A model generated the notes under the pieces. The model ran no database searches and was not told the DNA's origin. It was given only the letters and a program-made list of their open reading frames with translations. Below, piece after piece: positions 3,708 to 25,981 of a stretch of 33,917 nt of DNA (position 1 is the stretch's first letter; every line of letters starts with the position of its first letter). The DNA comes from a virus. A program made the translations under genes and the position numbers. Location of the stretch: the IMG/VR virus record IMGVR_UViG_3300031839_001622, positions 1 to 33,917 of that record. One strand, 5' to 3'.

Positions 3708-4469
3708 TCAGGTCAATTCCGCCGCCAGACCCGAAACCAGCCTGCGGGCGTTCGCCTGAAACGCGGCCCGGGCAAACCCCCGGGGAGTGGCGGACCTGAT
3801 GTTTTTGGTTTTCATCGACTTGCCCCCCAATTTTTTCCAGATCAGCGACCCCCCGTAAGAGTCGCCCAAGGGGACCGGCCGCCGCTCGGGCATGACGAAT
3901 CCGCCGCCCGTCCACAGGCAAGTCCGCTTTGTGTATGCGTCCCGGTCCGGGATATAGTCCGGCCAGCGCGGGTGCCGGGCCTCGCCCTCGGGGATATAGC
4001 CCCCGAATTCATTTGGGTTGAACGTATGGTCCGGCCTGCGCCAAAACGTGGACAGGACGGACGCGGGGTTTTCTGCAAACCAGGCGCAGCCAAGGGCCGC
4101 GCCCAGATCGCCGCACCATTTGGCCCGGTCCGCCGCCTTGTGCTGAAACAGCGGGTCAACGGCCCGCTTGGCAGCGAAATGCCGCGCGCCGGACACGGCC
4201 ATGTCCGTGCAGACCGGAAACGACGACAGGAACACCGCGCGCCCCGCGAACCTGTCCGCCAGCCCCATGACGTTGCCACGGTCCCACAGGTCCAGCCGCT
4301 CTTTCGTGATGGAACCGCCACCCGGAAACCGGGTCACGTCGCCCGCCTCGGAATGCTGAATGTCAAAGCAATAGCAGTCGAAACCGGCGCGCGCCCACGG
4401 CAAAACCGCCTCGCCCGTATAGCAGTAAAGGGACAGCACAACGGGCCGCCGAATTTCACACATGAACAT
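3708..4469 (-). CDS. Cytosine-C5 DNA methyltransferase-like protein
   Basis: The protein has 253 residues from ATG 4469, one base after the stop of the HD gene. Motif I is probably LSLYCYTGEAVLPWARAGFD (SAM binding). FDIQHSE fits motif II, SFPVCTDMAVSG carries the PC dipeptide of motif IV with the likely catalytic Cys, and FAENPASVLS fits the ENV-type motif VI. The family would transfer a methyl group to cytosine in DNA. The protein is short for this class and no clear target-recognition domain or late motifs are visible, so activity and specificity are uncertain. No restriction enzyme lies nearby, so an orphan phage methylase protecting its own DNA is likely. Confidence 0.72.
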   Translation of the reverse strand: MFMCEIRRPVVLSLYCYTGEAVLPWARAGFDCYCFDIQHSEAGDVTRFPGGGSITKERLDLWDRGNVMGLADRFAGRAVFLSSFPVCTDMAVSGARHFAAKRAVDPLFQHKAADRAKWCGDLGAALGCAWFAENPASVLSTFWRRPDHTFNPNEFGGYIPEGEARHPRWPDYIPDRDAYTKRTCLWTGGGFVMPERRPVPLGDSYGGSLIWKKLGGKSMKTKNIRSATPRGFARAAFQANARRLVSGLAAELT

Positions 4470-4470
4470 A

Positions 4471-5076
4471 TCAGGACACCCCCAATTCATCAGCGCGGGC
4501 GGCAATCAGGGCCTTGGCACGGGCGATGAAAAGGTGCGCGTCGAACCTCTGAACATGGGCCTGCGCCTGCCAGAACCGGAACCATTTTTCCGCCACGGCC
4601 AGCCATTCGTCCGGGACCTCGGGGGCGGGCGACCAGTCCCCCTTAACGCCGATGAAATGCCGCTCACAGTCCAGGGCCAGCCGGTCAATCTGGCCGACCT
4701 CGGCCGCGAAATCGACCGGGACGCGGGCCACGCCCGCAACCGCCGCCCACAGGCCGGATTCAATCGGCCCGAAGTCCCGCAACAGGCACTTAACGGGCGT
4801 GACCTGATCGCCCAGGACATATTCCGGGGCGTCATGCAGAAGGGCCTGAAGGCGGGTGGCGATGGGCAGGCCCATCTGATCCGCGACCGCCTCGCAAAAT
4901 AGCGAATGCCACGCCACCGAATAAAACGGCAGATCGCGCCGCGTATGGCCGCCAAACCGCACCTTGGCGGAAAGCCCGTGGCCTATATCCTCAATTCGGA
5001 TCGCCTCGGCCGTGGGGTTGAGCACGTCCAGCAAGCCGGACCCCGTGAAAACGATTCCCCGGAATTTCATGTCCAT
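4471..5076 (-). CDS. HD-domain phosphohydrolase (YfbR-like nucleotidase type)
   Basis: The protein has 201 residues; GAAGGA precedes ATG 5076 at good spacing. The HD signature is visible: SVAWHSLFCEAVA supplies the first His, LLHDAPEYVLGD the HD pair, and a later Asp follows in QIDRLALDCE. These residues bind a divalent metal. Phage homologues are usually annotated as HD hydrolases or 5'-deoxynucleotidases that act on dNMPs. The gene sits between a DNA methyltransferase and small unknown genes in the early operon, which fits a role in nucleotide pool control. The substrate cannot be told from sequence alone. Confidence 0.8.
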   Translation of the reverse strand: MDMKFRGIVFTGSGLLDVLNPTAEAIRIEDIGHGLSAKVRFGGHTRRDLPFYSVAWHSLFCEAVADQMGLPIATRLQALLHDAPEYVLGDQVTPVKCLLRDFGPIESGLWAAVAGVARVPVDFAAEVGQIDRLALDCERHFIGVKGDWSPAPEVPDEWLAVAEKWFRFWQAQAHVQRFDAHLFIARAKALIAARADELGVS

Positions 5077-6506: not shown

Positions 6507-7520
6507 ATGGCGGACCCCCTGACACAGAACCGGCACCCGCAAGCCGACCTATTCCTTTTCGACGTGGCGTCAGCCCCGATAAAGGACCTTGTGGACACGC
6601 TGGAGCACCCGTTTTATTCACTGTCCAAGCGGCCGGAAATGGCCCCGCGCATCTATCGCCACGGGTCCGTCCAGATCGAAATGATTCCATCCCGCAAGGG
6701 CCTGCCGACGATCTATGACAAGGATCTGTTGATTTACGCCGTGTCCAAGGTCGCAGCCGGGATGCGGCGGGGCCTGCCCGTGGGGCCGGTTGTGGAAATG
6801 CCATCCGCTGAAATCCTGCAATTCACGAACCGGGGCACGTCTGGGCGTGAATATCGCGCGCTCGAAGATGCGCTAGAACGGCTGGCCGGAACGCTTGTCA
6901 AAACCACCTTGCGCGCCAAGGGCGGGGGCAAAGACGTGTCCATGTTCCACCTAGTCGAAATCGCCACCATCGGCCGCCGTGGCCGCCTTGGCGTCACCGG
7001 CTGCACCATCCGCTTGCCCGCGTGGGTTTTTGAAGCAATCGAAGCAAACGCCATCCTAACCCTGCACCCGGATTATTTCCGCCTCAGACGGCCGCTTGAA
7101 AAACGACTCTATGAATTGGGGCGCAAGCATTGCGGCCGCCAGCCGCGATGGAGCATTGGACTGGACACCCTGCACCGGAAATCAGGGTCACAAGGCGCGA
7201 TCCGAAATTTCCGCGTGGCCGTCAAGCGCCTGGCCGAAACCGACCACCTGCCGGATTATCACGTTCAGCTTGACACAGCGGACGATCATGTGACGTTCCG
7301 CCCCCGCGACACACCGGACGCCGACGCCACCGAACCGCCACCCCTGCCCCCATTGTCCGCCTGCACAATTGACGCGGCAAAGGCGGTCCGTCCAGGCGCG
7401 GACGTTTACGCCCTCGAAGGCGAATGGCGGGCATGGGCGGCGGACAAGGCCCCACCGGCCGACGCCGATCTGGCGTTTCTCGGGTTCGTCAGGAACAAGC
7501 CCCGGGTGCGAACGGGTTAA
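6507..7520 (+). CDS. repA: Plasmid replication initiator, RepA (RPA family)
   Basis: The protein has 337 residues; AAAGGGAAAC precedes ATG 6507. The N-terminal half (about 10-200) has the look of the replication initiator protein A family found on Rhodobacterales and other alphaproteobacterial plasmids: DLFLFDVASAPIKDLVDTLEHPFYSLSK, then YDKDLLIYAVSKV, then an FRLRRPLEKRLYELGRKHCG segment that ends the winged-helix region. The C-terminus is Pro/Asp-rich and probably a flexible tail. It should bind the iterons just upstream and start replication of the circular prophage. It is the first of eight rightward genes, opposite to the phage genes, and its presence together with a full virion module is the main evidence for a phage-plasmid. 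Confidence 0.85.
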   Translation: MADPLTQNRHPQADLFLFDVASAPIKDLVDTLEHPFYSLSKRPEMAPRIYRHGSVQIEMIPSRKGLPTIYDKDLLIYAVSKVAAGMRRGLPVGPVVEMPSAEILQFTNRGTSGREYRALEDALERLAGTLVKTTLRAKGGGKDVSMFHLVEIATIGRRGRLGVTGCTIRLPAWVFEAIEANAILTLHPDYFRLRRPLEKRLYELGRKHCGRQPRWSIGLDTLHRKSGSQGAIRNFRVAVKRLAETDHLPDYHVQLDTADDHVTFRPRDTPDADATEPPPLPPLSACTIDAAKAVRPGADVYALEGEWRAWAADKAPPADADLAFLGFVRNKPRVRTG

Positions 7521-7527
7521 CCTTTAA

Positions 7528-7559
7528 GATAGCTTGCTAGCGCACTAGCTTGCTATCAT
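7528..7559. promoter_or_regulatory. Heptad operator site D upstream of parA
   Basis: This is a full four-heptad site in the 88-base gap between repA and parA: GATAGC, T, TGCTAGC, GC, ACTAGCT, T, GCTATCA. On the plus strand the last heptad forms TATCAT, a good -10 box pointing to parA; no clear -35 was found at 17 bases. It could be both the parA operator and the partition centromere, as with parS sites of type Ib systems located before the par operon. Confidence 0.75.
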
Positions 7560-7608
7560 TCTATGAATGACATAAACGGGCAGAACAAACCCAACGGGAC
7601 AACGTGCT

Positions 7609-8244
7609 ATGATTCTTTCACTTATCAGCCAAAAGGGGGGCGTCGGGAAATCCACCCTGGCGCGCCTTTTGGCCGTCGAATTCACCCGCGCCGGATGGGC
7701 GGTCAAGATTGCCGATCTGGACCCCGCGCAAGGCACATCAACGAAATGGACGTTGCGGCGTGACGAAATGGGCGTGAACCCTGAAATCCCGGTCCAGAAA
7801 TACCGCGACCCGCGCCGGGCGATCCAGGACGCGGGCAATCACGACCTGCTAATCCTTGACGGCCCCGCGCACTCCGAACGCTCGGGGGCCATCATGGCCC
7901 ACGCGTCGGATTTGGTCCTGATCCCCACCGGCTATTCCGTGGACGATCTCGACCCGCAAATTCAGGTTGCCTATGACCTCGAAGCGGCCGGGGTGCCGCC
8001 GGAACGAATCAGGTTTGCATTCTGCCGGGCGCGCGGCAGCGCAAAGGTTGACAGGTCCGCCCGTGATTTCATCAAGCGGGCAGGACTGACCGCCCTTGCC
8101 GCATCCGTCCGGGAACTGCCATCCATCCAGCAGGCCCACGCAATCGGCCGGACAGCCGCCGAAACCGGGCACAAGGGAATTGACGGGGAAGGGCGCGCGA
8201 TGGCCGCCGAAGTTTCTAACCTATTGACCGGGGAAAGGCCCTGA
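7609..8244 (+). CDS. parA: ParA-family partition ATPase (small, type Ib)
   Basis: The protein has 211 residues. The deviant Walker A motif KGGVGKST, with the signature lysine, starts at residue 9; IADLDPAQGTS and LLILDGPAHSE follow as the A' and B motifs. At this length it lacks the N-terminal HTH of P1-type ParA, which makes it the short type Ib form that works with small RHH or HTH partners. The protein should oscillate or form gradients on the nucleoid and segregate the plasmid prophage. The gene is one base ahead of the RHH gene and downstream of operator site D. GGGAC serves as a weak ribosome-binding site. Confidence 0.92.
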   Translation: MILSLISQKGGVGKSTLARLLAVEFTRAGWAVKIADLDPAQGTSTKWTLRRDEMGVNPEIPVQKYRDPRRAIQDAGNHDLLILDGPAHSERSGAIMAHASDLVLIPTGYSVDDLDPQIQVAYDLEAAGVPPERIRFAFCRARGSAKVDRSARDFIKRAGLTALAASVRELPSIQQAHAIGRTAAETGHKGIDGEGRAMAAEVSNLLTGERP

Positions 8245-14083: not shown

Positions 14084-14626
14084 TCAGGCCGCGCGCCCGT
14101 GAAAGATCACCGCGCGGTCAATCCGGGGCGGCCCGAAGCGATACCACGCCGCGTTATCCTTGCCGGTTTGCTTGCTCCCCTCGATCCACTTGACCCGGCC
14201 CACGCTCACCACCTCATGCAGCAAGGGCAGGAACGCGGCGGACTGGCGCGTGTGCATCCAATCCGCATCGAACAGCAGCCAGACCGGACCGGCCGGGGCA
14301 AACCGCTGGATAAAGGGGTGAAGGAACTTCCGGTCCCAAGGCGGATTCGTGATGATCGCGTCAGCCTCCCAGGACGCAGCGCAGGGGCCGGGGGACAATT
14401 CCATGGAATCGGCCTGCGCGATCCCGTGGGCGCGTGGCTCAATATCGAAAGCCGCCGCGCATTTCAGCCCGACCGCTTCCAGATGCCGGATCAACCGACC
14501 GTCCCCGGCGCAGGGTTCGCAGAACGTGCGAACGCCGCGCAGATGGGGGACCAGGGGCGCGACAGCCTCGGGTGGCGTCGGGTAATAATCACGCGCCACG
14601 CGCGCGAAATCGGACCGCTTGCCCAT
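14084..14626 (-). CDS. DNA adenine-N6 methyltransferase
   Basis: The protein has 180 residues; CGAGGTGAAAAC precedes ATG 14626. YYPTPPEAV at the N-terminus, FCEPCAGDGRLIRHL as motif I (SAM binding), AFDIEP as motif II, and ITNPPWDR as catalytic motif IV give a class I adenine methyltransferase. It lacks an evident target-recognition domain and has no partner restriction gene, so it is probably a phage-encoded orphan methylase that masks sites on its own DNA. It is the first gene after the late-module terminator and follows the duplicated TTGACT element, so its promoter may be the 14810-14834 element with readthrough of the hairpin. Confidence 0.85.
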   Translation of the reverse strand: MGKRSDFARVARDYYPTPPEAVAPLVPHLRGVRTFCEPCAGDGRLIRHLEAVGLKCAAAFDIEPRAHGIAQADSMELSPGPCAASWEADAIITNPPWDRKFLHPFIQRFAPAGPVWLLFDADWMHTRQSAAFLPLLHEVVSVGRVKWIEGSKQTGKDNAAWYRFGPPRIDRAVIFHGRAA

Positions 14627-20425: not shown

Positions 20426-22624
20426 TCACCTATTCAGGAACGATTTGGATTTGCGCGACATGGCGCGGACACGCCCCACCGAGTCCCCGACGATGGCGGG
20501 CCGGGCCTCGGCAATCTTGCGCCCGGCAATGTCGTGCATGACCGCCGTTAGCGATCCGGTTGACGCATCAAAGCCGATGGACACATGGCCGCCCGCCGGG
20601 GAATTTTCAGACCCACGGGGCGCGGGGGCCTCGCCCCGGCGCGTGACCTTGATCGTCTCGCCCTGCGACACCCGAAACGCGGCTATGTTGCGGTCAATCC
20701 CGGCCCGACCGGCAACGGCCATTTCGCCGCCCGTATCGAACCCCGGCAGCGCCGACAGGATCGACCCGCCGACACTGGACAGGAAACCGCCAATGCCACC
20801 ACCGCCACCACCCGAAACACCGCCCGAAACGCGGCTAAAAATTCCGTCCAGGGTTTGCCCGAACGGTTCCCACAGATTCGTCAGCATCCGGTCCAGCAAC
20901 CGCTTTCCCCATTCGTCCACAAAGTCCCCGAAATCCTCGAATTCCTTGCGGCCGGGATTGAATATGCCGCTCATCATTTCGGCCGTTTCCTTGCCGAACC
21001 CCTCCAGGGCGTTCGCGCCGTCATTGGCGTTTGCGATGATCGTGCGCAGCAGTTCCCCAAGTTCATCCTTGGATTCCTTGGCCGCCGCGCCCACCTTCCG
21101 CAGCCCGCCAGCCGCGCCACCCGCACCGCCGCCCAGGCCGTCCAGAACGCCGTCCAGGTCAACCGTGACAGATCCAAGGCCGCCCAGGCTGGAACCAGCT
21201 TCAGCGCCAAGGCCCTTCAGGCGTTCAATCTGCGACTCCGTCTCGGAAAGTTGCTTCAGCAATTCGGGCGGAGTCCCCAACCGCGAAAGGGATTCCATCG
21301 CCATTTGACTTTCACCGTCAACGCGCCGGCCGATTGCCCCGATCCGGTAAAGTTCGGGGTCAATGTGACCCGTGGGGCCAGGGCCGTAATCGTTCAGACC
21401 CCCACGCTTCAGCGCCGACATGGCGTCCTGATATTCCGCCGACCCCTGCACAAGCGCCCGATGTTCCGCGATCACCGCCTTGACGTTTTCATAGCGGGCC
21501 TGCGCCTCGCGCATCTTGGCCGTGGCCGTGTCAACAGACATGGAAATGCCGGAATCAAGCACCCCGGACAGGGCGGCAGTTGCCCGCACCTCATCCGCCA
21601 CCGACGCCACCAGATCGTCAGTCCGGCCTTGCAGGGTTTGCGTTTCACCCGACAAGGACACCGCCGCCGCCGTCACGGCCGCCACGGCACCGGCAACAAG
21701 AGTCAAGGTCAGGGTGACAGGACCCGCCGCGACCATCAGCGCGCCAATCGCAACCGTCAGCACCCCCACGGCGGCCGAAACGGCCGTGAAGGCGATCACC
21801 GCTTTCTGCATGGGATCAGGCAGGGAAGTGAACCCGGCCGCCACGGAACCAAAAAACCCCGTGATCTGCGGCAGCAAATCAGCCACATGACCGCCGACAA
21901 CCTCTTTCAAGTCCCCCCACGCGTTCTGAAACTGGACAAGCGCCCCCATGCCGACAGACGCGGCGGCCTGCGCCTGCCCGCCATAGACCCGCTGGATTTC
22001 GTCCAGAATGACGGCCTGCGCCTCGGCCATCCTGCCGGTTTCCGCCAGCGCCTTGACAACATCTTTTTGCCGTTGCGTGAATGTGATTCCGGCCTCGCCA
22101 AGCGCGCCAAGACCCCGCACCGGGTCATTCAGCGCCTTGCCAAGCATGATCGCCGTGCCCTTCAGGTCCGCATTCAGGACCGTTGACAGGTCAAGGGCGG
22201 CCGTCTGCGCGCGGGTGAAGGCATCCCCCGTGATGTTCGTAAAGGTCAGGAATTGCGCCGTCACGCCGTCAAGAATCGCCTCATCCCCAAACCGCGTAAC
22301 GGCCTGAAGGGCGGACGCCTGCCGGAACAGTTCATCCGCCGCGAACCCGGCCGCGCCGCCAGTTTGCCGGACGGCCTGGACAACCTTTGCCTGCGCCTTT
22401 TCCTGCACATCGAACAGCGACAGCGAGTCCCGGAACGCCAGCAGAACCGGGGCCGTCAGCGCCGTCAGCGCGCCACCCGCCGCGACCAGATTTCCGCCCA
22501 TCCGGTTTGCACGTTCCGTCACACCGGCCATTGCGCCGTCAATGCCGGACAGGCCGCGCCGGACCTTATCGAAGGCCGCGCCCGTCATGTCTTTGGCCCG
22601 GATATTGAAAAACAGGTCGCGCAT
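20426..22624 (-). CDS. Tail tape measure protein
   Basis: The protein has 732 residues. It begins MRDLFFNIRAKDMTGAAFDKVRRGL, a common tape-measure start, and continues with long helical segments and PVRGLGALGEAGITFTQRQKDVVKAL, a conserved region of phage tape measures. A hydrophobic region of about 65 residues (AVIAFTAVSAAVGVLTVAIG and onward) would insert in the host membrane. The C-terminus is Gly-rich (GGVSGGGGGGIGGFLSSVGG). At about 0.15 nm per residue the tail would be near 110 nm, consistent with a siphovirus. It follows the chaperone pair, the usual order. Confidence 0.92.
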   Translation of the reverse strand: MRDLFFNIRAKDMTGAAFDKVRRGLSGIDGAMAGVTERANRMGGNLVAAGGALTALTAPVLLAFRDSLSLFDVQEKAQAKVVQAVRQTGGAAGFAADELFRQASALQAVTRFGDEAILDGVTAQFLTFTNITGDAFTRAQTAALDLSTVLNADLKGTAIMLGKALNDPVRGLGALGEAGITFTQRQKDVVKALAETGRMAEAQAVILDEIQRVYGGQAQAAASVGMGALVQFQNAWGDLKEVVGGHVADLLPQITGFFGSVAAGFTSLPDPMQKAVIAFTAVSAAVGVLTVAIGALMVAAGPVTLTLTLVAGAVAAVTAAAVSLSGETQTLQGRTDDLVASVADEVRATAALSGVLDSGISMSVDTATAKMREAQARYENVKAVIAEHRALVQGSAEYQDAMSALKRGGLNDYGPGPTGHIDPELYRIGAIGRRVDGESQMAMESLSRLGTPPELLKQLSETESQIERLKGLGAEAGSSLGGLGSVTVDLDGVLDGLGGGAGGAAGGLRKVGAAAKESKDELGELLRTIIANANDGANALEGFGKETAEMMSGIFNPGRKEFEDFGDFVDEWGKRLLDRMLTNLWEPFGQTLDGIFSRVSGGVSGGGGGGIGGFLSSVGGSILSALPGFDTGGEMAVAGRAGIDRNIAAFRVSQGETIKVTRRGEAPAPRGSENSPAGGHVSIGFDASTGSLTAVMHDIAGRKIAEARPAIVGDSVGRVRAMSRKSKSFLNR

Positions 22625-22636
22625 GATGAACCCCCG

Positions 22637-22774
22637 TCAACGCTCTGAAAGATGAGTCAAATATGCGACCCACCCCCGTATTTCCTCGGCCGGAAGGTCA
22701 AGGACCTCGGAAACCGACTTGCCCAAATGGGATGCGATCCCATACAGGCCGAAGGTTTCCGGGTCCTCGCGCAT
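22637..22774 (-). CDS. Tail assembly chaperone C-terminal part (gpT-like)
   Basis: This 45-residue frame begins MREDPETFGLYG and ends YLTHLSER, with PAEEIRGWVAYL typical of the T portion of GT chaperones. Its ATG overlaps the stop of the upstream chaperone gene. It is probably made mainly as an extension of that gene through a -1 shift at the heptamer just before the stop, giving a GT fusion of about 160 residues that coats the tape measure during tail assembly. Independent initiation at the ATG is possible but no good ribosome-binding site is seen. Confidence 0.7.
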   Translation of the reverse strand: MREDPETFGLYGIASHLGKSVSEVLDLPAEEIRGWVAYLTHLSER

Positions 22775-23118
22775 CAGTTTCCCAAATCGGAATCCGTGGA
22801 CCCGCTCAGGATGCGGCCAGCGACTCGGCCGATCACGGCCGGGTCCATTGCCGTCTCAAAGGCGGCCAGCGTGGGCGCGTCATTGGCAAAGATGCGCTTG
22901 CCATCCTTGCCTTTCAGGCAATGAATCACCGTCAGCGCCGACAGGCGTGCATCAGACTTGCCCGCCTGATGTTGGATCAGTTGCCGGATTTTCAGCGTCG
23001 GGGGGTCATAGGTCGCAGCGGACTCGCCCGTCAGCCCCCACTCCGGGACCTCGACCGTCTGGCCGCGCAGGCGGTCAAAATGGGCGCGCGCGGCGTCAAG
23101 GATTTGATCTGCATTCAT
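22774..23118 (-). CDS. Tail assembly chaperone (gpG-like)
   Basis: The protein has 114 residues; AAGGCTGAAAAC precedes the ATG. It is a helical, slightly charged protein (NADQILDAARAHFDRLRG, LKIRQLIQHQAG, LAAFETAMDPAVIGRVAGRIL) between the major tail protein and tape measure genes, where all lambda-like phages encode the frameshifted chaperone pair. The last codons are TTG GGA AAC TGA, and GGGAAAC is a slippery heptamer in the correct frame for a -1 shift into the 45-residue frame downstream. Confidence 0.8.
   Translation of the reverse strand: MNADQILDAARAHFDRLRGQTVEVPEWGLTGESAATYDPPTLKIRQLIQHQAGKSDARLSALTVIHCLKGKDGKRIFANDAPTLAAFETAMDPAVIGRVAGRILSGSTDSDLGN
22777..22783 (-). other. Programmed -1 frameshift site
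   Basis: On the minus strand the sequence is G GGA AAC followed directly by TGA. The zero-frame codons are GGA and AAC, as needed for a tandem -1 slip. After the slip translation continues CTG ATG CGC GAG, in frame with the gpT-like sequence. Lambda uses GGGAAAG at the same place. Confidence 0.78.
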
Positions 23119-23182: not shown

Positions 23183-23572
23183 TCAGGTGACGGTCGCGCG
23201 GGCCAGCGGCCCCTTGCCCGCGAAATTGATCGTCATGGACACCCACCCGTCTTTTGTGCCGGACGTGGGAATTCCGGTAATGATCGCATCGCCAGAACGA
23301 TACTCCTGACCCGAAGAATCGCCGCCCGGATAGAACTGGACCGCCACGACCTCACCCACACCGGCCGCGATCTGGCCCAGGTCCGCCGGGTCAAAATAGA
23401 CTTCGCAGGACCCGGACCAGCTTTTCACGCCGGTTTCATTGTCCGCCCATTCATCGCCCATCGAATAGCCCTGAAGGACGGCCGCTTGTTCGTCCAGGTT
23501 CCAGCCCTGAAGATGGCCGACCACCTCGGCCGCAATCGTCATGGACCCGCCTTGGCCGTGAATTTTCGCCAT
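23183..23572 (-). CDS. Major tail (tube) protein
   Basis: The protein has 129 residues; GAAAGGGTGTAAAC precedes the ATG. It is beta-rich with VGHLQGWNLDEQAAVLQGYSMGDEW and GVKSWSGSCEVYFDPAD, a pattern frequent in lambda-type and related major tail proteins where the GW and SWSGS-type segments recur, and it ends in VSMTINFAGKGPL. Its place directly before the chaperone pair and tape measure is decisive. It is short for the family (usually 130-250 residues) and has no C-terminal Ig-like domain. Confidence 0.82.
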   Translation of the reverse strand: MAKIHGQGGSMTIAAEVVGHLQGWNLDEQAAVLQGYSMGDEWADNETGVKSWSGSCEVYFDPADLGQIAAGVGEVVAVQFYPGGDSSGQEYRSGDAIITGIPTSGTKDGWVSMTINFAGKGPLARATVT

Positions 23573-24127: not shown

Positions 24128-25981
24128 TCACACGCCCGCGCCCGGGTTGCGACCGTGGACGAACGATTCCGCGTGACGCAGGCCGAAATCAACGTCCTGG
24201 AAGGCGCGCAGGACCATGCCGCCCGACGCGGCCAGCGTGGCCGTGTCAACGGTCAGATCAAGACCCGACCACATGGCAAGAATCAGGTCCTGCCAGTTGC
24301 CCAGGATCGAACCGGCCGCCGGGCCGTTGTTCGACATGACGGCTTCATAGCCGTTGACCTCGTTCCCTTGCATCAGGAATTCGGCCGTCCCGGCAACCTT
24401 GGGGGTGGACTTCAGGACGCCACGGAAGGGCGCGCGCATGACGTAGCGCATTGCGTCCACGTCAGCGTCCGCCGACGCAATGGCGCTTTCCATTTCCACG
24501 ATTTCCGCCCAGGTCGGAATATCGGCCGCGAAATCGACCGTCGGGATTCCGTAATCCAGCAGCCCGGCCGGGGCGTCAGGATCGGCCGCGCCGCTGATCC
24601 CGCAGGCATCCAGCGCCAGCGCCAGAACCTGAATCAGATCGTCGCGGACCAGAAATTCAACGTCCGGGGTGGACTGGATCAGGGTGCGGCGGGTGATCGG
24701 CACCGAACCGGCCAACGTGTGCGGGGTCAGGCCGACAGTGTTGAACGACAGGTCCGAATCCGTGGAATTGCCATTTTCCCCGATCCAGTGCGCCGTCGCG
24801 CCCGCCGCTTGACGCGGAATGTCCACGTTGCCGACAAGGCCGGTCAGGGTGCGAACGCCAAGGCGGGTCAGCGCGGCGCGGCGGCGCAGCATGCCGATGA
24901 AAGACCCGTCCAGATGTTCGGTTGCGACCAGCGCGGCAGCGTTGGCATTCGGCACGGCCACCGACGCGCGGGTGAAGTTCTGCGCCGACAGAACGTCAGC
25001 CGGAACCAGAAGGCCCTGCGCCGACCGCTTTAGCGTGGTTTCAGCGGCGTTCGACACCTCGATCTCGAACGCGGCGGCCTCGCGGGCGCGCTTGTCATTC
25101 GGATTCGCCAGATAGCGCACCGCGTTCAACAGCGAAAACTGGCGGATTTCCTTGTCCGTCATGCCGATCTTGCCCGCACGGGCGCGGGTGGCCGTCGACT
25201 CGTCCGATTCCATGTTGTCCAGAACGTCTTTCTGGAAATCGGCTTCAGTCCGGCCTTCCTCGATAGCCGCATCAACCTTGTCATCCGGCATATCGAACCG
25301 CTTGCCCAGGGCGCGGATCGCCTTCACGCGGGCGCGCTCGGCCGACAGGTCCGGGGTTTTGACCTCTGCGGGGTTTGCAGCGGGGTTATCTTTCGTCATG
25401 TCTTGTTCCTCATCGGGAAGGGATACGGAAATTTCGCGTTCGGCCACATCGGCCGCGCGCCCCACGCCCACGGTTGCGTCAGCAGGCACCGGGCAAAGCG
25501 TGATTTCATAGGGACGCCAGCGGGCGCGCAGGACGGGCATTCCGTCGCGCGCGGGTTCGGGCGTCAGGGTCAGGATTTCATATCCGACAGACACGCCGGA
25601 CAATTCGCCATCCCGGACCCGTGCAAGGATCTCGGACGCGCGGGCGGACTGGCCGAACCGGACCACGGCATAGCCGCGCCCGTTTTCGATCCAGAACCTT
25701 TCGACCACCCCCACTTGCGAGTCCACGCTCTGGACGTGATCCACCAGCAGGGGCGCGCGGCCACCTTCCAGACGGGTGAAATCCACCTCCCCGTCCGCGT
25801 GACCCAGGATTTCAAGGCAAAGCGTCGGCTTGCCTGAAATCTCATATGACCGGACAACGGGTTCCTCCGACGAAAACGCCAGAGTCACGCGCCGATCATC
25901 CACGGCCGCGCCATCCTCGGGCGCGGCCATGTCGATTTCCCCGGCGCGGTAGGCCCGCCCGGGAATTCTGATTTTCACCAT
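24128..25981 (-). CDS. Fused prohead protease and major capsid protein
   Basis: The protein has 617 residues. Residues 1-180 are an HK97-type (S78) prohead protease: LLVDHVQSVD gives the His, GELSGVSVGYEI the nucleophilic Ser and RWRPYEITLCPVP the conserved end. A charged helical region (about 195-290; SAERARVKAIRALGKRF, DNMESDESTATRAR) resembles the delta/scaffold domain. The rest is an HK97-fold capsid (SAQNFTRASVAVPNANAAALVATEH, LTGLVGNVDIPRQ, HWIGENGNSTDSD, LAGSVPITRRTLIQ). The protease should cut itself and the scaffold from the capsid domain. An internal GAGGAACAAGAC-ATG at 25399 may also give a separate 423-residue capsid precursor. Confidence 0.9.
   Translation of the reverse strand: MVKIRIPGRAYRAGEIDMAAPEDGAAVDDRRVTLAFSSEEPVVRSYEISGKPTLCLEILGHADGEVDFTRLEGGRAPLLVDHVQSVDSQVGVVERFWIENGRGYAVVRFGQSARASEILARVRDGELSGVSVGYEILTLTPEPARDGMPVLRARWRPYEITLCPVPADATVGVGRAADVAEREISVSLPDEEQDMTKDNPAANPAEVKTPDLSAERARVKAIRALGKRFDMPDDKVDAAIEEGRTEADFQKDVLDNMESDESTATRARAGKIGMTDKEIRQFSLLNAVRYLANPNDKRAREAAAFEIEVSNAAETTLKRSAQGLLVPADVLSAQNFTRASVAVPNANAAALVATEHLDGSFIGMLRRRAALTRLGVRTLTGLVGNVDIPRQAAGATAHWIGENGNSTDSDLSFNTVGLTPHTLAGSVPITRRTLIQSTPDVEFLVRDDLIQVLALALDACGISGAADPDAPAGLLDYGIPTVDFAADIPTWAEIVEMESAIASADADVDAMRYVMRAPFRGVLKSTPKVAGTAEFLMQGNEVNGYEAVMSNNGPAAGSILGNWQDLILAMWSGLDLTVDTATLAASGGMVLRAFQDVDFGLRHAESFVHGRNPGAGV

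Follow-up and report, generated by a model that had tools for sequence, protein, structure and literature searches.

A probable programmed -1 ribosomal frameshift of the lambda G/GT type between two tail assembly chaperone frames of a virus related to Cronusvirus

Does the tail assembly chaperone gene of this virus simply end at its stop codon, or do some ribosomes continue into a short second frame? The question arises at a minus-strand gene of IMG/VR virus record IMGVR_UViG_3300031839_001622, of which positions 1 to 33,917 form the stretch considered here (the window). The original prediction held that the gene ends with G GGA AAC TGA, that the heptamer GGGAAAC lies in the frame required for slippage, and that a -1 slip leads through CTG ATG CGC into a frame of 45 residues. 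Each of these points agrees with the sequence. The minus strand at the junction is GAT TTG GGA AAC TGA TGC GCG, the heptamer is correctly phased (Table 1), and the -1 frame past the heptamer, which begins with LMREDPETFG, reads LMREDPETFGLYGIASHLGKSVSEVLDLPAEEIRGWVAYLTHLSER. The ATG of this second frame (T) overlaps the TGA stop codon of the first (G), and a slip would append 46 residues (a Leu plus the 45 residues of T) to G, yielding a protein of 160 amino acids.

Table 1. Features at and around the G/T junction (positions in the window).
Feature	Position	Strand	Basis or remark
Major tail (tube) protein gene, next upstream	23183..23572	-	phrog_1407, E 1.5e-21
G-like tail assembly chaperone gene, 114 aa	22774..23118	-	phrog_16513, AlphaFold/Foldseek
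Slippery heptamer G_GGA_AAC	22783..22777	-	Adjoins TGA stop, X_XXY_YYZ phase
T-like -1 frame, 45 aa from ATG	22637..22774	-	phrog_16513 positions 116-160, E 9.9e-13
Strong predicted stem-loop, possible stimulator	22699..22769	-	Starts 7 nt after heptamer
Tail tape measure gene, 732 aa, next downstream	20426..22624	-	phrog_27166, E 8.5e-165

The phase of the heptamer and its place beside the stop codon are unusual, but GGGAAAC as such is not, as its 8 copies in the window compare with 8.28 expected. Among 206 six-frame open reading frames of at least 60 amino acids, only three carry a heptamer of the type XXXAAAN or XXXTTTN at most two codons from their stop, namely CCCTTTC in two cases and the GGGAAAC of the G gene. 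The longer string GGGAAACTGATG, a pattern that was picked after being seen, is present once in the window and absent from 100 shuffles. Codon bias alone is an unlikely cause for the retention of GGA AAC in diverged relatives, because, in ten late genes listed by hand, GGA is used for 30 of the 453 Gly residues and AAC for 72 of the 129 Asn residues.

Both frames resemble tail assembly chaperones. G matches the PHROG tail assembly chaperone profile phrog_16513 over residues 1-114 (E 8.6e-48). The profile comprises 160 positions, of which G covers 1-114 and T covers 116-160, and we infer that it derives from fused G-T proteins. The AlphaFold model of G, which was built from 22 sequences, has a pLDDT of 88.4, and its best Foldseek match among solved structures is the HK97 chaperone 2OB9 (probability 1.00, E 0.016, TM 0.52, 22% identity); no Foldseek match reached an E-value of 0.001 or better. 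2OB9 was also the sole match when solved structures were searched with a G profile (E 0.04). Together, these models point to a chaperone fold for G. In Pfam, G matched only BRK (E 0.14) and T only DUF6760 (E 0.0042), both under the cut-off, and NCBIfam returned no match for G or T. The G/T pair is located between the tail tube and the tape measure genes; the tail tube gene additionally matches Phage_tail_2 with an E-value of 3e-4, which is below the cut-off of that family.

The T frame also appears to be under constraint. In an alignment of 14 T segments that includes lambda T, E31 and W35 are invariant, and the start of lambda T aligns with these shared residues. Ten of the 14 segments match phrog_16513 and nine match phrog_337, a tail protein profile. 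The Pfam family PF06223 (Phage_tail_T) gave no match to the T of the window at E-values up to 1 and matched one of the 14 segments, a set that contains lambda's own, with an E-value of 0.11. When the T frame alone was compared between relatives, dN was lower than dS in six of seven pairs and dS was saturated in the seventh. For the window and phage RcRhea, dN was 0.24 and dS 0.89, and the pair with the least marked difference had a dN of 0.33 and a dS of 0.66.

For a broader comparison, 90 loci were assembled, consisting of the window, three Cronusvirus records, Dinoroseobacter phage R4C, Pelagibacter phage HTVC202P, one Tropicimonas contig and IMG/VR contigs, the largest IMG/VR set being the best 80 of 201 relatives. 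Some of the loci, including the Tropicimonas contig, were found with six peptide patterns, one of which ends in the heptamer-coded LGN. Most of the 90 were found without the heptamer-coded pattern and hence were not chosen for their heptamer. The set contains near copies (L007 and L012, for example, are identical at the heptamer site), and the number of distinct heptamer/T combinations is 55. An in-phase heptamer adjoins the stop codon in 86 of the 90 loci, as AAAAAAC (67), GGGAAAC (11), AAAAAAA (5) or AAAAAAG (3). GGGAAAC is present in 12 loci overall, and the remaining 78 are of the A type. In the four loci with a non-abutting heptamer, it lies one codon (L090 and L088), five codons (L080) or 20 codons (L009) before the stop. 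In 87 of the 90 loci, the -1 frame continues for 30 or more codons beyond the stop. The same place is thus occupied in different relatives by GGGAAAC, which encodes Gly-Asn, and by AAAAAAC, which encodes Lys-Asn; since the encoded residues differ between the two main heptamers, this suggests that selection acts on slippage and not on the encoded protein. The three loci with short -1 frames are L015 (3 codons), L079 (17 codons) and L080 (7 codons), which may reflect loss or sequencing errors. L080, which lacks both an abutting heptamer and a T frame beyond its stop, does not speak for a frameshift.

The closest DNA matches to the window, at about 70% identity, are five GenBank phage records, all of them RcRhea, RcCronus or RcSaxon of the genus Cronusvirus. 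Four of the five were opened, and each contains a coding sequence joined from two pieces beside a short chaperone coding sequence (RCRHEA_11/12 in RcRhea and its equivalents). In the three records in which the site was read, one for each phage, GGGAAACTGATG is identical. Gene order and T length also correspond to the window, and the G proteins share 62% identity over 114 residues. The Cronusvirus phages differ from the window in their DNA, which is about 70% identical in this region, and RcRhea prefers another downstream RNA fold. The joined product of RcCronus (KR935217) is labelled a hypothetical protein, and a passage of the genome paper on the three phages mentions the frameshift (PMC4882933). 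R4C and HTVC202P are more distant. HTVC202P and the A-type IMG/VR contigs have a homologous G (27% and 25-34% identity, respectively) that is followed after its stop by a T-like -1 frame, but their heptamer is mostly A_AAA_AAC and a T start codon is usually lacking.

It had also been suggested that so short a frame can escape gene calling. This is the case for R4C, where the T-like -1 frame after GGGAAAC (L010:1836-1985) has no coding sequence in GenBank, and for HTVC202P, where the same holds after AAAAAAC (L011:1833-2003); in the nearest named relatives, however, the frame is annotated. No word starting with "frameshift" occurs in the main texts of two R4C papers (PMC6836515, PMC10276861) or in that of a survey of alphaproteobacterial phages (PMC10783043). 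A passage in a paper on Rhodobacter capsulatus phages describes a frameshift as usual in tail assembly chaperone genes, and states that RcZahn, unlike most of the phages described there, gives no clear evidence of one (PMC8601537).

Several other genes of the window deserve mention. A replication initiation protein (phrog_23447) and a ParA-like partition protein (phrog_164) are encoded at 6507-8244, as in RcRhea. Their presence suggests an extrachromosomal prophage, a state that PMC4882933 gives for its phages. The 617-residue product of the capsid gene (24128-25981) carries an HK97-type capsid domain at its C terminus, and its N-terminal part resembles a model of a prohead protease/capsid fusion, below the cut-off of that model. 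An open reading frame next to a minor tail gene (14084-14626), an odd place, matches the DNA methyltransferase profile phrog_799 (E 1.3e-32), and a second methyltransferase match is found at 3708-4505.

Profile matches, neighbouring genes, conservation, predicted fold and the annotation of relatives all favour the original prediction that a programmed frameshift joins two chaperone frames, and a tail chaperone gene with a programmed -1 ribosomal frameshift of the G/GT type is very probably the correct reading of this locus. In this model, in which the slip, its rate and the functions of the proteins are predicted, most ribosomes would halt at the TGA and produce the 114-residue G. A minority would slip back by one base on G_GGA_AAC, with pairing shifted from GGA to GGG and from AAC to AAA, and would read the overlapping frame to produce the 160-residue G-T protein. 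In lambda, according to the relevant section of PMC5009743, G is the part that binds the tape measure protein and T the part that recruits the tail tube protein. By analogy, the G part would bind the tape measure protein of this virus and the T part would recruit its tail tube protein; if these roles apply, the ratio of G to G-T would matter for tail assembly.

The same sequence could be read in other ways. T might be a separate small gene, translated by termination and reinitiation at TGATG into a free 45-residue protein without any frameshift. The stop-overlapping ATG that this would need is present in ten of the 12 GGG-type loci, including the window, and pairing of the stretch before the T start with a 16S rRNA tail is weak (-4.2 kcal/mol) but no weaker than that of the capsid gene (-4.2 kcal/mol) and of G (-3.5 kcal/mol). 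R4C, however, keeps GGGAAAC while ATC replaces the ATG, and L090, with a TTG instead of an ATG at the overlap, retains GGGAAAC at a distance of one codon from the stop. Likewise, 73 of the 78 A-type loci have no ATG, GTG or TTG within roughly the first ten T codons; of the other five, one has a TTG at the sixth T codon and four have an ATG at the ninth. What the loci share is the heptamer, because the ATG is absent from R4C, L090 and most A-type loci. In the GenBank records of the near relatives, moreover, G and T are joined. We therefore rejected reinitiation as the sole route, which with an ATG that is often missing while the heptamer stays is very improbable.

A variant of the frameshift reading would combine both routes, with G-T produced mainly by frameshifting and some free T initiated at the overlapping ATG. 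The co-occurrence of TGATG and GGGAAAC in ten of the 12 GGG-type loci would fit such an arrangement, as would the similarity of the pairing before the ATG of T in the window to that before the capsid gene. The ATG is nevertheless missing in R4C and L090, and the Leu-Met that it helps to encode may be retained as part of the fusion, so that we regard this variant as unlikely. The fusion could also result from slippage of the RNA polymerase instead of the ribosome, for which HTVC202P and many A-type contigs offer runs of about nine A residues at the site. Throughout the GGG-type loci, however, the window included, the site is GGGAAAC with no run longer than three, and polymerase slippage is hardly credible as the source of the fusion. 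Ribosomal frameshifting thus stays the preferred reading.

A 3' stimulatory stem-loop would be expected as a conserved structure a few nucleotides downstream of the heptamer. The window has a strong candidate: the predicted 77-nt fold has a free energy of -42.1 kcal/mol and a z-score of -4.77, none of 200 shuffles was as stable, and 90 nt counted from the heptamer reach -45.0 kcal/mol. In a scan of the late region, 23 of 1800 overlapping 77-nt segments, the site itself included, equalled or exceeded the stability of the 77-nt fold. For the 77 nt after the heptamer or stop, z-scores in addition to that of the window were -4.09 (L007), -3.34 (L090), -2.45 (L013) and -2.21 (L005), as compared to -1.31 for R4C, -1.26 for RcRhea and -0.48 for HTVC202P. 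Hence five of the eight folded sequences had a z-score of -2.2 or lower, several of them being G+C-rich relatives.

The picture for a conserved RNA stimulator is nonetheless mixed, as the stem is strong in the window, yet its pairs are kept only in part, covariation is unfavourable and stability relative to the same locus varies. Five relatives retain 13-20 of the 32 pairs, and RNAalifold with six sequences (L005 and L007 left aside) produced no good consensus, with a covariation term of 2.17 (positive values being unfavourable). When the stability of 70 nt was compared with that of other stretches of the same locus in 11 loci, the fraction at least as stable ranged from 0.000 (L007) to 0.957 (L028), and stability was ordinary or low in seven of the 11. 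With 40 nt, the window was unremarkable, a fraction of 0.682 being at least as stable. The four A-type loci tested displayed nothing unusual. The hairpin may help in the window, but it does not define the system. A candidate internal Shine-Dalgarno sequence was considered in the 25 nt upstream of the heptamer, whose calculated duplex energy, taken by itself, is -5.8 kcal/mol. Some frameshifts of tailed phages seem to be independent of a stimulator, as stated in a passage of PMC5009743.

The arrangement resembles lambda G/GT, where G likewise carries a correctly phased GGGAAA(G) close to its end and the T frame precedes the tape measure gene H. The assertion that the lambda heptamer also lies directly before the stop codon proved incorrect, as GGGAAAG is placed five sense codons ahead of the G stop. 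Lambda further differs in having AAG for AAC, and its T is 144 amino acids long compared to 45 in the window. A closer parallel to the site is Burkholderia phage KL1, in which GGGAAAC immediately upstream of a TGA had been predicted earlier for gp18/gp19, according to the pertinent part of PMC3483164; KL1 is likened here by site arrangement alone, and its proteins are 142 and 264 amino acids long. Both main heptamers have been listed for other phages, AAAAAAC for the phiCbK group of Caulobacter phages and GGGAAAC for Colossus, in a section of PMC3556154.

Could the abutting stop codon itself be part of the signal, in that slow termination, while AAC occupies the P site, favours slippage? The abutting position is seen over both GGG-type and A-type heptamers and with TGA, TAA and TAG stops, but the lambda heptamer operates without an abutting stop, and we consider a contribution of the stop rather doubtful. 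If it were real, the ratio of G to G-T would be tied to the supply of release factors, and the 3' stem of the window would be an optional extra.

The predicted frameshift of the window is an unremarkable case of a mechanism that has long been known in lambda, and it is not a discovery, because T is already annotated in the nearest named relatives. It adds one further case to a widespread phage mechanism and draws attention to a short T frame that is unannotated in R4C and HTVC202P. The constant site abutting the stop codon across a wide family provides a comparative set for the question of whether termination aids frameshifting.
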